A stretch of DNA of 21,117 nt from a virus: positions 1 to 21,117 of IMG/VR virus record IMGVR_UViG_3300032291_000244. One strand, 5' to 3'. The translations under genes and the position numbers were made by a program. The notes beneath the pieces are model-generated. The model made no database searches, was not told where the DNA came from, and saw only the letters and a program-made list of their open reading frames with translations. Position 1 is the first letter of the stretch. Each line of letters begins with the position of its first letter. Shown here piece by piece: positions 7,106 to 14,258 of this stretch.

Positions 7106-7297
7106 TTAGTTGACTTTAATTTGTTGTCTTTGATGCTTGCCTATTTTCCTAGAAAGCCAGCAAGATTGGCAAATCCATTTGTGTCCCATGTCAACACCGC
7201 CCTCTGGAGGCTTGATTTCATCACAATTATTACAAGATCGTAATTTGTGAACTGGCTGGTTGCTGTTAAGACTCAATGGTGTCATTTTAAGTTTCAT
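7106..7297 (-). CDS. zinc-ribbon microprotein, 63 aa
   Basis: The ATG at 7297 overlaps the stop of the upstream gene as ATGA, so it is probably translationally coupled; MTPLSL (residue 5) is an alternative start. Two C-x2-C knuckles (C22/C25 in SCNNC and C43/C46 in ICQSC) separated by 17 residues make a zinc ribbon, and the tail is basic (SRKIGKHQRQQIKVN), which would suit nucleic-acid contact. It is one of two adjacent zinc-binding microproteins at the distal end of the leftward operon. No specific family is recognised. Confidence 0.65.
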   Translation of the reverse strand: MKLKMTPLSLNSNQPVHKLRSCNNCDEIKPPEGGVDMGHKWICQSCWLSRKIGKHQRQQIKVN

Positions 7298-7617
7298 TGT
7301 TGAATTATTTTCATTACACGCTGTGAACGTCCTGATCTGGCTTTGCGCTTTTCGCCCGTGTCCGCAATAAATCCTTTGCGTATCAATGGGGCAAATCTAG
7401 GCGAAATGGTCTGAACACCGTGGTGTGGAAAGTGCGCCATTACTTCATCGGAAGTGCATCCATTTGGATATTTTGCAACCACTTCATAAACCATTTGCTC
7501 TAGCCGTGTAGAGTCAATTGATTCAGCCGCTTCCATGCTGGTGATTGGGTCTGATGCTCTGGCCATAAACTTTGGCTCTGAGCCAAAGATGGATTCAAAA
7601 ACTTTACTGAATGTCAT
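7294..7617 (-). CDS. winged-helix DNA-binding-like phage protein, 107 aa
   Basis: The start at 7617 has AAGGGGAAAAC upstream. The motif ARASDPITSMEAAESI (about residues 19-34) followed by a helical segment, NGCTSDEVMAHF, ISPRFAPLIRKGFI and a Gly/Arg-rich wing (GEKRKARSGRSQ) is a pattern I know from small phage proteins of the lambda-like early or nin regions and is consistent with a winged helix-turn-helix. It likely binds DNA, possibly as a regulator, but no target is evident. An 80-base leader that can form a large stem-loop and an alternative pairing over the ribosome site separates it from the gene upstream. Confidence 0.65.
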   Translation of the reverse strand: MTFSKVFESIFGSEPKFMARASDPITSMEAAESIDSTRLEQMVYEVVAKYPNGCTSDEVMAHFPHHGVQTISPRFAPLIRKGFIADTGEKRKARSGRSQRVMKIIQQ

Positions 7618-7696: not shown

Positions 7697-7924
7697 TCAA
7701 AAATCAATGTCATCGTCTTTTGGCAGACCTTGATAATTTGATGGCTCTGGATCATTTAAAAATGCCCGTCCATCCCAATTGCGTGGCTCAACATCAATGA
7801 TTAACATTTCGCCAGCTTTGGTTTCAATGACGCTACCAATGGTGCGGTAACGGTGCTTTGTTTTACCTTCTTTGTCTGTGTAAGAACCTACAGAGGCTTT
7901 AACAATTTTAAGAGTTTTTGACAT
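7697..7924 (-). CDS. small hypothetical protein with beta/OB-like pattern, 75 aa
   Basis: I chose the ATG at 7924 (MSKTLKI), which overlaps the exonuclease stop by 17 bases, over an in-frame ATG at 7948 that would overlap further. The sequence alternates hydrophobic and charged residues (KIVKASVGSYTDKEG, HRYRTIGSVIET, EMLIIDVEP), the look of a small beta barrel, and ends in an acidic tail (PKDDDIDF), a feature also seen in single-strand DNA-binding proteins. Immediately downstream of an ERF-YqaJ pair, an SSB-like or recombination accessory role is plausible but unproven. Confidence 0.65.
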   Translation of the reverse strand: MSKTLKIVKASVGSYTDKEGKTKHRYRTIGSVIETKAGEMLIIDVEPRNWDGRAFLNDPEPSNYQGLPKDDDIDF

Positions 7925-8543
7925 TTTTAATTTCCATAAGTTGAGCAATTTTTATATCAAGTTCATTTAAGAATTTGACAATTTCTTCCTCCATTAGCCT
8001 GATATACATATTGTCCCGCGGGACACGTTTAACAAACAACTGAAGTTCCTCTGGCAGACGATTGTCAAAAGACACAAAGTCACACCAGCTACGCCCTGTG
8101 CAAGCCATTTGGAATTGCATTTGCGTGTTGTATTTGCCCGGCACAGTCTGACTTAGCAAAGTCTCAATGTGCGTGGCCGTATTAGGGCATTTGATTTCTA
8201 GCAATCCATCATCCCCAACAAGCCCGTCAGGAGAAGCCCCAGCCATGATGATTGACGGGTGAGGCACAAACCCCACTTCATCCACTAAAACATTGTGGGC
8301 GACTTCATACGACAGCCGGGCTAACGGTTCTGTTTCTGTACCCCATTGCATAGCTGAGTTTGTAAAACCCTCTGCTTTTTGGTTTGTCAGGCGTTCACAG
8401 ACCAATTGCGCCATGTAGTTTTCGCGGCTGGCGCTAAAGCCTGTTTTGGTTTTGGCAATCACATCAGCCACACGGGATGCTGTGACCTTACCAATCCGAG
8501 CCTCAAACCATGCGTCTGAGCGTTGTTCAATCAATTCAATCAT
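7908..8543 (-). CDS. YqaJ-family viral recombinase exonuclease (lambda Exo type)
   Basis: This 211-residue protein belongs to the PD-(D/E)xK nucleases that resect double-strand ends 5' to 3', giving single strands for annealing. Visible motifs are QRSDAWFEARIGKVTASRVADV (residues about 7-28), GTETEPLA (E72), ASPDGL (D106), LEIKCP (E116, K118) and YNTQMQFQMACTG (about 138-150). D106, E116 and K118 form the catalytic core. The ribosome site is AAAGGGGAAATT. The gene overlaps the ERF gene by four bases, so the pair is translationally coupled, as with lambda exo-bet. A 14-bp perfect palindrome lies inside the gene at 8012-8025. Confidence 0.93.
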   Translation of the reverse strand: MIELIEQRSDAWFEARIGKVTASRVADVIAKTKTGFSASRENYMAQLVCERLTNQKAEGFTNSAMQWGTETEPLARLSYEVAHNVLVDEVGFVPHPSIIMAGASPDGLVGDDGLLEIKCPNTATHIETLLSQTVPGKYNTQMQFQMACTGRSWCDFVSFDNRLPEELQLFVKRVPRDNMYIRLMEEEIVKFLNELDIKIAQLMEIKNVKNS

Positions 8544-9100
8544 AATTTCCCCTTTGCTTTGTCTTTAGCGGCAATCACTTTGCCTTGCCAATCTGTATTG
8601 CCATTGCAAGCGGCATAGGCGGCTTTGTAGGCGGCTTTCAAAGCGTCTTGGTCTGTTGATGCCTCAATAGCGGCCAAATGGTCTGTAAGGGCGTTTTCAT
8701 TGATGGCTGGCTTTTCAATGACTGTCTTGCGGCTGGCCGCGTTGCCATCGTCATCCTCTGGTGCTATACCGCAAGCGGCCATCAGCGATCCTCTACGGGC
8801 ATAAGTCAAAGCACTCATGTGACCTTGTGGGTCTGCTTTGCTGGCAGGGAAATGCAGAATGCCGCATTCCATCATTTCGCCTGACTCATGAACAAACATG
8901 GTTTCAACCATTACGCCATTTTCACAATCATAAGATTTCTGAATCAAGGCAATCCCGTTGTCATTGAGAGCGCCTATAACAGCCTCAACGCAAGCGGATA
9001 GGTCAGCATAGCGTGACTTGAAATGCGGGTTTGTAGAGGACTTTAAAGCAGGGCCAAAAGCCTTTTGTGCTTTGACCAATGCTGTTGCTAAGTTTTTCAT
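8540..9100 (-). CDS. erf: ERF-family single-strand annealing protein
   Basis: The 186-residue protein anneals complementary single strands during phage recombination and genome circularisation, as P22 Erf does. Family features include the N-terminal ALVKAQKAFGPALKSSTNPHFKSRYADL (residues about 7-34), NGIALIQ, and the block DPQGHMSALTYARRGSLMAACGIAPEDDDGN (about 90-120). Most relatives I recall read ALTYARRYSL, so Gly at 104 in place of an aromatic is unusual. The C-terminal third is an Ala-rich helical extension. AAGGATGAAAC provides the ribosome site. Partnered with the downstream YqaJ exonuclease. Confidence 0.92.
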   Translation of the reverse strand: MKNLATALVKAQKAFGPALKSSTNPHFKSRYADLSACVEAVIGALNDNGIALIQKSYDCENGVMVETMFVHESGEMMECGILHFPASKADPQGHMSALTYARRGSLMAACGIAPEDDDGNAASRKTVIEKPAINENALTDHLAAIEASTDQDALKAAYKAAYAACNGNTDWQGKVIAAKDKAKGKL

Positions 9101-9648: not shown

Positions 9649-9909
9649 TTAAGCAAACTTATTGATCAATGCGTTTAACTTGCGAACTTGATCACGGGCA
9701 GACTTTTGAAATTCGTCACCGTTTTCGCCAATGTAATCTTCATTGTTTAAGTGACCAGCTTCATGGAAACAGCTAAGAATGTATTTAGCTTCATGCACAA
9801 TTTGTGCGTCTGTGTAATCGTTGATTTCTTTTTTATCGTCTTGAGAAATTTGCTGTAAGTTGTTAGCTAATTCGTCAATTGACATTGCTGATTTAATGAT
9901 TGAGCGCAT
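9649..9909 (-). CDS. hypothetical protein, first gene after leftward promoter P1, 86 aa
   Basis: The ATG at 9909 has AGAGGAAATCAAA upstream. The protein is helical; the C-terminal half has ILSCFHEAGHLNNEDYIGEN and SARDQVRKLNALI. The segment around FHEAGH looks like an H-E-x-x-H motif at first glance, but the spacing is H-E-A-G-H within a short helical protein with no other protease feature, so a peptidase call is not supported. As the first gene behind a strong, operator-containing promoter it should be made very early. Function unknown. Confidence 0.7.
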   Translation of the reverse strand: MRSIIKSAMSIDELANNLQQISQDDKKEINDYTDAQIVHEAKYILSCFHEAGHLNNEDYIGENGDEFQKSARDQVRKLNALINKFA

Positions 9910-9953
9910 TTTGATTTCCTCTAAAAAGACCCCATAAATTTAGGGCATGATGA
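9910..9953 (-). repeat. 5' leader copy 1 (shared with copy 2)
   Basis: Read leftward this leader runs from the -10 of P1 to the ATG at 9909: ATGCCCT, eight or so variable bases, GGGGTCTTTTT, then AGAGGAAATCAAAATG. It matches copy 2 upstream of the 56-aa gene almost base for base outside the variable part. CCC can pair with GGG across the variable bases, and a short T run follows, resembling an attenuator. Confidence 0.7.
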
Positions 9954-9983
9954 ATTATAAGTTATCTTATAAAGAAGTGTCAA
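9954..9983 (-). promoter_or_regulatory. leftward sigma70 promoter P1
   Basis: On the minus strand, TTGACA (9983-9978) and TATAAT (9959-9954) are both perfect consensus with an 18-base spacer. It drives the recombination operon from 9909 leftward. A perfect dyad lies between the two boxes and overlaps the -10, so the promoter is probably repressible. Confidence 0.85.
9955..9972. promoter_or_regulatory. operator-like dyad O1 at promoter P1
   Basis: TTATAAG-TTAT-CTTATAA is a perfect 7-base inverted repeat with a 4-base spacer. Its ATAAG-N4-CTTAT core (9957-9970) recurs at promoter P2 and over the Cro-like gene start. Position within the promoter suggests a repressor site, most simply for the neighbouring Cro-like protein. 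Confidence 0.6.
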
Positions 9984-10015
9984 CACTTTTTTTAAATATT
10001 TTTAAATTATTTTTA

Positions 10016-10035
10016 GATGGGGCTTTTGCCCCGTC
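10016..10035 (+). terminator. GC-rich stem-loop with T-rich tail on + strand
   Basis: GATGGGGC-TTTT-GCCCCGTC forms an 8-base-pair stem (one T-G pair as RNA) with a TTTT loop, followed on the + strand by TTATTTATTTGTTTTTT. That is intrinsic-terminator architecture for rightward transcription. Read leftward, just beyond the 56-aa gene, the stem has a C-A mismatch and is followed by an A-rich tract, so it is a poor terminator in the direction expected from the genes. Confidence 0.45.
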
Positions 10036-10039
10036 TTAT

Positions 10040-10210
10040 TTATTTGTTTTTTAGTGGTGAATTGGCTTTAAAGTCATAACCAATATTTTTTAATTCTTTG
10101 GTTGTTTCAGCAAGACTCATGTTGTTTACTTGTTGAACAGGGTGGCCAATGTTAAGTAAAGCCTTACGTTGAGCATTTGCCAAAGTAACCATCCAGTTGC
10201 AGTTCATCAT
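10040..10210 (-). CDS. hypothetical protein, first gene of promoter P2, 56 aa
   Basis: ATGATG at 10210/10207 follows AAGGAAATCAAA, the same ribosome site as the 86-aa gene, and lies directly behind promoter P2. The reading frame ends in TAA at 10040. The sequence (MVTLANAQRKALLNIGHPVQ, then a polar Lys/Asn-rich C-terminus) is helical at first and basic overall. No family recognised. Strong expression signals rather than similarity support it. Position equals that of lambda N, but I see no arginine-rich boxB-binding motif to call it an antiterminator. Confidence 0.65.
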   Translation of the reverse strand: MMNCNWMVTLANAQRKALLNIGHPVQQVNNMSLAETTKELKNIGYDFKANSPLKNK

Positions 10211-10254
10211 TTTGATTTCCTTAAAAGACCCCGAGAAGTTCAGGGCATGGGTGA
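10211..10254 (-). repeat. 5' leader copy 2
   Basis: The leader of the 56-aa gene reads ATGCCCT, variable bases, GGGGTCTTTT, then AAGGAAATCAAAATG, nearly identical to copy 1 about 300 bases to the left. The variable bases differ, yet CCC...GGG pairing is kept in both, which hints that the hairpin rather than its loop matters. Confidence 0.7.
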
Positions 10255-10282
10255 ATTATAAGCGGTCTTATGGGTAAGTCAA
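10255..10282 (-). promoter_or_regulatory. leftward sigma70 promoter P2
   Basis: On the minus strand TTGACT (10282-10277) and a perfect TATAAT (10260-10255) are separated by 16 bases. It should drive the 56-aa gene and possibly read on into the recombination operon. Operator-like dyad O2 lies in its spacer and overlaps the -10. Confidence 0.8.
10258..10271. promoter_or_regulatory. operator-like dyad O2 at promoter P2
   Basis: ATAAG-CGGT-CTTAT is a perfect 5-base inverted repeat with a 4-base spacer, the same core and spacing as O1, in the same position relative to the -10 box. Confidence 0.6.
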
Positions 10283-10321
10283 CAATTATTTCAAATTATT
10301 TTGTAGGTACTTTCCCTAGTG

Positions 10322-10347
10322 TTGCTTTTTTGCAAACTGTGTATAAT
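10322..10347 (+). promoter_or_regulatory. rightward promoter of the Cro-like gene
   Basis: A perfect TATAAT lies at 10342-10347. The -35 is poor: TTGCTT (10322-10327) gives only a 14-base spacer, so the promoter is weaker than P1 and P2 or needs help. The -10 ends seven bases before the ATG at 10355, so the transcript would begin at or next to the start codon. Confidence 0.55.
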
Positions 10348-10356
10348 GTGGCTTAT
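10343..10356. promoter_or_regulatory. operator-like dyad O3 over the Cro-like gene start
   Basis: ATAAT-GTGG-CTTAT matches the O1/O2 core with one changed base and identical spacing. It covers the -10 box and the first bases of the start codon, an arrangement suited to autorepression by the encoded protein. Confidence 0.5.
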
Positions 10357-10510
10357 GAATAAAAAAAAGTTTATAGCACTAGCTGGCTCACAGAGTGATC
10401 TAGCCAAACTTTTGGGGATCAAGCAACCAGCTATTTCCCAATGGAAAGCTGTGCCTATTGCGAGAATTTGGCAATTAAAATTGTTGCGTCCACATTGGTT
10501 TGTGGATTAA
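10355..10510 (+). CDS. Cro-like helix-turn-helix repressor, 51 aa
   Basis: The protein has the P22 Cro layout: a short basic start (MNKKKFIALAG), a helix-turn-helix at about residues 11-30 (SQSDLAKLLGIKQPAISQWK), then VPIARIWQLKLL and a short tail. P22 Cro shows the same Q-x-x-x-A-x-x-L-G-I-x-x-x-A-V-S-Q-W-K pattern. I chose the ATG at 10355; an in-frame ATG at 10346 lies inside the -10 box and could not be transcribed from this promoter. There is no Shine-Dalgarno, consistent with a leaderless mRNA. No CI-type repressor is encoded beside it, which is unusual for a Cro. It probably acts on dyads O1-O3. Confidence 0.82.
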   Translation: MNKKKFIALAGSQSDLAKLLGIKQPAISQWKAVPIARIWQLKLLRPHWFVD

Positions 10511-10613: not shown

Positions 10614-11342
10614 ATGCACTATTACAAGAGAAATCTTGGCGACTATGCCAAGAAAGCTGGACGTTTGACTATGTTGCAACACGGTGCGTACACGCTTCTT
10701 ATTGATTCGTGTTATGACCGTGAAATTTTCCCAACTTTAGATCAAGCACTTGAATGGACTTGGGCATCAACAGAAGCTGAAGTTGAGGCGGTAAAGTTTG
10801 TTTTAACAAGGTTTTTTACGCTTGATAAAGAAGGCTGTTATGTGCAAGACAGGATTCTTCAAGAGTTGTTGCATTACCATAAAAATGCAGATACAAACAA
10901 ACGAATTGCTGATGAAAGAGAAGCAAAGCGTAGAGAAAAAAGCACGAACCGTGTACCAAGCGTTAACGAAGCTACACCTAACCAAGAACCACTAACCACT
11001 AACCATAAACCAAAGAGAGAAAGCGCAACTGTCGTTGCTTGCCCTTCTGATGTTGATCAACAAATTTGGGATGATTGGAAACAGTTACGCAAAGCCAAAA
11101 AAGCGCCTGTTACAGAAACCGTGGTTAAAGGCGCAAGAAAAGAAGCCGCCAAAGCAAACATGGCGTTTAGCGATTTTCTGAGTGTATGGTGCGCTAGAGG
11201 TTCACAAGGTTTGCAAGCTGATTGGTTAAAGCCTGATGAGAAAAATTTAAGCAAAACTGGTCAAATGAATCAAAGGGTAATTTCTGGTCTTACCCGTGGT
11301 CTTATTGGAGGACAAACCAATGTCAAATTACTTGGAAACTGA
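10614..11342 (+). CDS. DUF1376-type phage replication protein, 242 aa
   Basis: The N-terminal about 90 residues (MHYYKRNLGDYAKKAGRLTM, HGAYTLLIDSCYDRE, FPT, then FFTLDKEGCYVQDRI) match the DUF1376 domain found in phage and prophage replication-initiation proteins. A charged linker follows (about 98-140), then a C-terminal helical domain (QIWDDWKQLRKAKKAPVTET ... QADWLKP), the pattern of lambda O-like or helicase-loader C-terminal parts. Five tandem 7-bp AACCANN repeats lie in the DNA encoding the linker, the same place as the iterons of lambda ori inside gene O. The next gene resembles lambda P, completing an initiator plus loader pair. Its 3' end overlaps the next gene by 23 bases. Confidence 0.8.
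   Translation: MHYYKRNLGDYAKKAGRLTMLQHGAYTLLIDSCYDREIFPTLDQALEWTWASTEAEVEAVKFVLTRFFTLDKEGCYVQDRILQELLHYHKNADTNKRIADEREAKRREKSTNRVPSVNEATPNQEPLTTNHKPKRESATVVACPSDVDQQIWDDWKQLRKAKKAPVTETVVKGARKEAAKANMAFSDFLSVWCARGSQGLQADWLKPDEKNLSKTGQMNQRVISGLTRGLIGGQTNVKLLGN
10980..11014 (+). repeat. five tandem 7-bp iterons (AACCANN), putative replication origin
   Basis: The repeat units are AACCAAG, AACCACT, AACCACT, AACCATA and AACCAAA, directly abutting. Seven is not a multiple of three, so the repeat cannot arise from a repeated peptide; it is a DNA-level pattern. It lies inside the replication gene's linker, as lambda ori iterons do in gene O. Confidence 0.55.
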
Positions 11343-13755: not shown

Positions 13756-13980
13756 ATGCTTAAACAGAATTGTAAGGCTTGTGTTTACTTTAACGACATA
13801 GGCGACATGGGGCAATGCAGACGCTACCCCACATTTCAAAACCGACACTACACAGAGTGGTGCGGTGAGTACCAATTAGTTGCCATCCTTGAGACAGAGG
13901 ATGTTTTACCCGTCCCAGAGGCGGGTGCTTTTTCTGAGCCGCCAAAGAAACGTGGCAGACCAGCAAAGGGTGCAAAATGA
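13756..13980 (+). CDS. Cys-rich protein with C-terminal AT-hook-like tail, 74 aa
   Basis: A strong AAAGGAGATTTGCC precedes the ATG. Four Cys (C6, C9, C21, C36 in QNCKACVYF, GQCRRYP and WCGEY) form a likely zinc or iron-sulfur centre; a linker with acidic and Pro residues leads to KKRGRPAKG (64-72), the core of an AT-hook, which binds the minor groove of A/T-rich DNA. Metal-binding head plus AT-hook suggests a DNA-associated protein. The stop overlaps the GroES-like gene start (ATGA), linking the two in translation. Confidence 0.75.
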   Translation: MLKQNCKACVYFNDIGDMGQCRRYPTFQNRHYTEWCGEYQLVAILETEDVLPVPEAGAFSEPPKKRGRPAKGAK

Positions 13981-14258
13981 ACTTGCAACCACTTAAAGAT
14001 AAAATTTTGGTGCGTCCTGAACAACGCATTCAAAGCACAATTTATTTCCAATCGGCAGAAGCTGACAGCCGTGGAACGGTTATGGCTGTAGGCCCAGAAG
14101 CCCATGCCGAGGGTTTGAACATTGGTGACAAAATTGCTTTTGGTACATTCCACAAAGACTATAAAGACGAATACCTAAAGTTTGAGGAAATCAAGCACAA
14201 TGATGAGCGCTTACTCAAAATGAGTTGGCAAGATGTTTGTTTTGTAATTGAGGAGTAA
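13977..14258 (+). CDS. GroES-like co-chaperonin (Cpn10 fold)
   Basis: The sequence follows GroES: LQPLKDKILVRPE at residues 3-15 (GroES IRPLHDRVIVKRKE), a short mobile-loop region about 16-28 with TIYF in the place of the GroEL-contacting IVL, then SRGTVMAVGPEA (31-42), LNIGDKIAFG (47-56), a Lys/Tyr-rich segment and a closing KMSWQDVCFVIEE. Length 93 is normal for Cpn10. GroES caps the host GroEL chamber; T4 gp31 and others replace it to fold large phage coat proteins. Here it likely helps fold the coat protein or another virion protein. The loop is shorter than in GroES. Confidence 0.87.
   Translation: MNLQPLKDKILVRPEQRIQSTIYFQSAEADSRGTVMAVGPEAHAEGLNIGDKIAFGTFHKDYKDEYLKFEEIKHNDERLLKMSWQDVCFVIEE

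Follow-up and report, generated by a model that had tools for sequence, protein, structure and literature searches.

We have identified an early control region of a freshwater phage that probably operates, on sequence evidence, as an autoregulated single-repressor switch, in which a P22-type Cro protein would block both early arms and its own promoter without CI. The region lies in a virus contig, a 21-kb fragment (21,117 nt, hereafter the window, to which all positions refer). Rightward genes of this phage encode a DUF1376 primosomal protein, RusA, NinB, terminase and a P22-like portal. The host is presumably a freshwater betaproteobacterium. When the window was compared with phage records by megablast, nothing matched. 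The features of the control region and its surroundings are as follows, with the operators being putative and the basis of each assignment given in parentheses.

7908-8543, leftward: YqaJ exonuclease, among the leftward genes (family search)
8540-9100, leftward: Erf, among the leftward genes (family search)
9649-9909, minus strand: 86-aa open reading frame, first gene after P1 (ORF list, family search)
9928-9947, minus strand: hairpin of the P2 type at the 5' end of the P1 transcript (sequence, relatives)
9954-9983, minus strand: leftward promoter P1, TTGACA-18-TATAAT, with its -10 overlapping a dyad (promoter inspection)
9957-9970, no strand: operator at P1, ATAAGTTATCTTAT (motif search, relatives, shuffles)
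10040-10210, minus strand: 56-aa open reading frame driven by P2, without family match (ORF list, family search)
10228-10246, minus strand: hairpin (GCCC...GGGU) at the 5' end of the P2 transcript (sequence, relatives)
10255-10282, minus strand: leftward promoter P2, TTGACT-16-TATAAT, with its -10 overlapping a dyad (promoter inspection)
10258-10271, no strand: operator at P2, ATAAGCGGTCTTAT (motif search, relatives, shuffles)
10342-10347, plus strand: -10 of the cro promoter, TATAAT, with the ATG 7 bases downstream (sequence)
10343-10356, no strand: operator at the cro promoter, ATAATGTGGCTTAT (motif search; kept in relatives)
10355-10510, plus strand: cro gene, 51 aa, P22_Cro family PF14549, recognition helix KQPAISQWK (profile, model, structure match)
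10614-11342, plus strand: DUF1376 primosomal/replication protein, downstream of cro (family search)

A preliminary description of this DNA had placed the motif ATAAG-N4-CTTAT at three sites, each overlapping the -10 of a promoter. A motif search of the window recovered all three, with perfect copies at 9957-9970 and 10258-10271 and a copy with one change at 10343-10356, and the overlaps were likewise found at two leftward promoters and at the cro promoter. Judged by their sequences, P1 and P2 are excellent, near-consensus promoters; the cro promoter is without a good -35 at normal spacing. The dyad at cro covers not only the -10 but also the A and T of the ATG that starts cro (10355-10357), an overlap that had been overlooked. 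Dinucleotide shuffles held no perfect copy in 297 of 300 cases and one copy in the other three, compared with two in the window. When up to one mismatch was allowed, the window contained four matches against a shuffle mean of 0.53, and none of 100 shuffles reached four. The fourth match (9649-9662, TTAAGCAAACTTAT) is probably due to chance, because it is placed where a gene ends, has no evident promoter and lacks a counterpart in the relative G001. Each of the three promoters has one dyad, rather than the several tandem operators of lambdoid CI/Cro control regions.

Loci with this Cro numbered 39 in a first scan and 80 of approximately 500 matches in a second. The expectation that the motif would be conserved at the same promoters was checked in these relatives, and in dozens of them dyads are again present at both places, the promoter to the left of cro and that of cro itself, with the half-sites kept and the N4 varying. 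Leftward sites are partly imperfect on one side, reading ATAAC-N4-CTTAT in 22 of 50. In three relatives, G001 (33.6 kb), G002 (34.7 kb) and G003 (33.8 kb), ATAA-N5-CTTAT or its mirror occurs in 3, 3 and 2 copies, respectively, all at control-region promoters. Many random copies across the genome would have spoken against an operator according to the preliminary description, and none was found outside the control region in these three. G001 and G003 are taken as complete because they carry exact terminal repeats of 127 bp and 123 bp. As a separate observation, one clade (L027, L029, L097 and similar loci) has an extra perfect ATTAG-N4-CTAAT approximately 28 bases upstream of cro, before the cro -10, so that the arrangement of sites at cro depends on the clade.

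The two leftward units of promoter and leader resemble each other and the -10 itself makes up half of each dyad, which would fit a reading in which the repeats are merely shared promoter sequence, that is, TATAAT and the flanks of duplicated promoters. We find this scarcely credible, as the non-promoter half CTTAT lies outside the -10 and shows 90-100% conservation at each base, next to an N4 that varies. It also precedes the -10 in the leftward promoters and follows it in the promoter of cro, and promoter function does not explain conservation on opposite sides of the -10 in two promoter types. Sites specific to particular Cro classes, TCTAC-N4-GTAGA and TATAG-N4-CTATA, contradict this reading as well.

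The 51-aa protein falls by its sequence within the P22 Cro family, scoring 40.9 bits against PF14549 in a profile search (curated cut-off 30.2, E 1.7e-10). Its predicted structure is all-alpha (pLDDT 88), and the best PDB match of the model is P22 Cro, 1rzs (probability 1.00, TM 0.73, with a modest E of 0.046). That this protein binds the dyads had been proposed earlier; support now comes from the family match and from co-variation of recognition helix and operator. Cro proteins with Ser26 in the recognition helix (QPS) go with CCTAT half-sites at both promoters in 7 of 7 loci, compared with 0 of 53 for Ala26 (p 2.6e-9 by Fisher's test for either site, a value that overstates independence because of the relatedness among loci and the linkage of the three sites over approximately 400 bp). 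Proteins with the helix SRGAVWKWK have the TCTAC-N4-GTAGA sites at both promoters, and in those with SRAAVHHWK the cro site is a perfect TATAG-N4-CTATA and the leftward one is degenerate. The OR sites of P22 share a common core, TTAAG-N4-CTTAA, that matches the dyad core. A tree of the downstream gene, tried as a way of counting independent specificity changes, was uninformative because the relatives carry non-homologous replication genes there.

The leftward operon also encodes a 107-aa protein (7294-7617, minus strand; phrog_1123) that looks like a small winged-helix protein and is possibly a second regulator. With this second putative DNA-binding protein at hand, a host protein or another phage protein might bind the dyads and the Cro-like protein might act elsewhere. 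Such an arrangement is very improbable in our view, given that the dyad core matches P22 Cro sites and that a changed recognition helix in Cro is accompanied by changed operators at both promoters. Because the sites at the leftward and cro promoters change with this helix, the comparison points to Cro as the protein that binds them.

Lambdoid switches pair Cro with CI, and cI adjoins cro. In agreement with the preliminary description, the gene content of the window includes no CI gene between the leftward promoters and cro. A CI gene elsewhere in related genomes was also looked for, and 33 records of the group yielded no integrase, no S24-type CI and no second HTH_3 regulator with a meaningful score. 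Of these records, 13 are at least 31 kb, and two of the 13 have exact terminal repeats. In the long relatives, of up to 36 kb, serine recombinase and ParA had no match and Phage_CI_repr had none above its cut-off. Positive controls were recovered, with integrase PF00589 found in the temperate phage PBR31 and in Rhizobacter and an S24 CI found in Rhizobacter. When 28 G001 proteins, mostly non-structural, were scanned against Pfam, no regulator family other than Cro emerged, the remaining HTH matches coming from the terminase small subunit. Because the defining cI was looked for and not found in the window and relatives, the control region is, by gene content, not a lambdoid CI/Cro switch and resembles the Cro arm of such a switch alone.

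These searches support the earlier suggestion of a Cro-only, possibly lytic phage, and we consider the phage probably lytic on its gene content. A temperate phage whose repressor belongs to an unrecognised family, or is encoded outside the sequenced part, could use the operators of Cro in the manner of lambda CI. This reading draws on the window being a 21-kb fragment, on a related Rhizobacter Cro that adjoins a divergent S24 CI, and on PBR31, which has a related portal together with an integrase and a c repressor. It is nevertheless unlikely, since none of the integrase, serine recombinase, ParA, S24 or CI-type HTH searches of the long relatives gave a match above cut-off and Cro was the sole regulator family among the scanned G001 proteins.

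In the single-repressor switch that we favor, host RNA polymerase would start two leftward transcripts, carrying small genes and then the Erf and YqaJ recombination genes, as well as a rightward, probably leaderless, transcript of cro and the replication genes. A Cro dimer would bind the one ATAAG-N4-CTTAT site at each promoter and block the -10, and accumulating Cro would shut down both early arms together with its own synthesis. We infer that Cro would thereby time early expression or hold it back. With no CI, there would be no competing occupant of the sites and no lysogenic branch.

The Cro of P22 and phage 21 has the same Pfam family, the same predicted fold, 42% identity and the operator core given above. 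The P22-like layout is common to both systems, with cro followed by replication genes and divergent leftward recombination genes (Erf). P22 has CI (c2), three tandem OR sites and a cro led by a Shine-Dalgarno sequence, whereas here there is no CI, one site per promoter and a predicted leaderless cro. Three circular Manatee Spring phages (MW202520, MW202674 and MW202462) have a Cro-type gene near Erf, and searches of them gave no integrase or S24 match. Their Cro proteins are divergent (52% identity over 42 residues for MW202462, the others being without a close match) and their operators somewhat different; MW202520 has TTAAG-N4-CTWWA dyads at both promoters and an ATG close after the -10. A prophage-like region of Rhizobacter sp. 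SG703 (L139) encodes a Cro that is 48% identical, in a divergent control region. Unlike here, a divergent 236-aa S24-type CI lies directly beside its cro. A literature search on CI-less Cro phages, leaderless cro and helix-operator co-evolution returned only the telomere phages PY54 and phiKO2 as close parallels. Their Cro acts at a 16-bp palindrome, and the PY54 cro mRNA is leaderless by RACE (PMC4488713). Repression by the PY54/phiKO2 Cro is directed at the prophage repressor gene alone and spares cro (PMC4488713, PMC4997575), in contrast to the present region, where the sites lie on the cro and leftward early promoters without a prophage repressor.

The cro mRNA is probably leaderless as well, beginning at or beside the AUG, because the ATG stands 5-7 bases after the -10. 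This distance holds in 62 of 64 non-redundant relatives, the other two having another assignment, and no Shine-Dalgarno motif was detected before cro. A transcript start at or next to the AUG would bring the operator over the start codon. Between the -35 of P2 and the cro promoter lies a block, TAGGTACTTTCCCTA(A/G)TGTTGC (window 10304-10325), that is kept in most relatives; its TAGGTACTTTCCCTAA part is found again in the distant phage MW202462. Because the cro promoter is without a good -35 at normal spacing, this block may stand in for one.

Virulent phages with cro but without cI, such as lytic Streptococcus thermophilus phages, are known among unrelated phages and hosts, and in those streptococcal phages the module is described as what a deletion left of a lysogeny module. 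Because of these other groups, a cro without cI is not in itself a new category. The special value of the present group is a natural set of matched Cro-operator pairs, with the operators ATAAG/CTTAT, ATAGG/CCTAT, TATAG/CTATA and TCTAC/GTAGA, which could be used for deriving rules of helix-DNA recognition and for building small orthogonal repressors. Rules relating Cro helix and half-site were reportedly set out by Hall et al. in 2005. The lambda switch is taught as a contest of CI and Cro, and finding the Cro half alone raises the question of what Cro feedback is for without a lysogeny decision. A more speculative and rather doubtful extension is that the Cro-only circuit is no decayed lambdoid switch but a stable one-repressor module, possibly of older origin, which belongs to a widespread group of freshwater phages and has been maintained by selection and repeatedly re-specified by Cro-operator co-evolution, with CI being a later addition in temperate relatives.

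Several minor observations concern the leaders and the surrounding genes. The 5' hairpin of both leftward mRNAs (AUGCCC...GGGGUCUUUU-AGGA) is conserved at the same place in relatives. Of 28 distinct leaders, 5 have G-C instead of C-G at one stem pair, and 95% of pair cells are consistent with the hairpin, which may protect the 5' end or regulate translation. An Rfam scan gave no match, and a two-codon AUG-CCC-stop leader peptide was rejected, the stop being absent in several relatives. A PADLOC scan of six early proteins, including the small leftward ones, also gave no match. A GroES-like co-chaperonin is encoded at 13977-14258 (PF00166, phrog_3188). Among the relatives, the replication gene after cro has been swapped for non-homologous ones while the control region stays.
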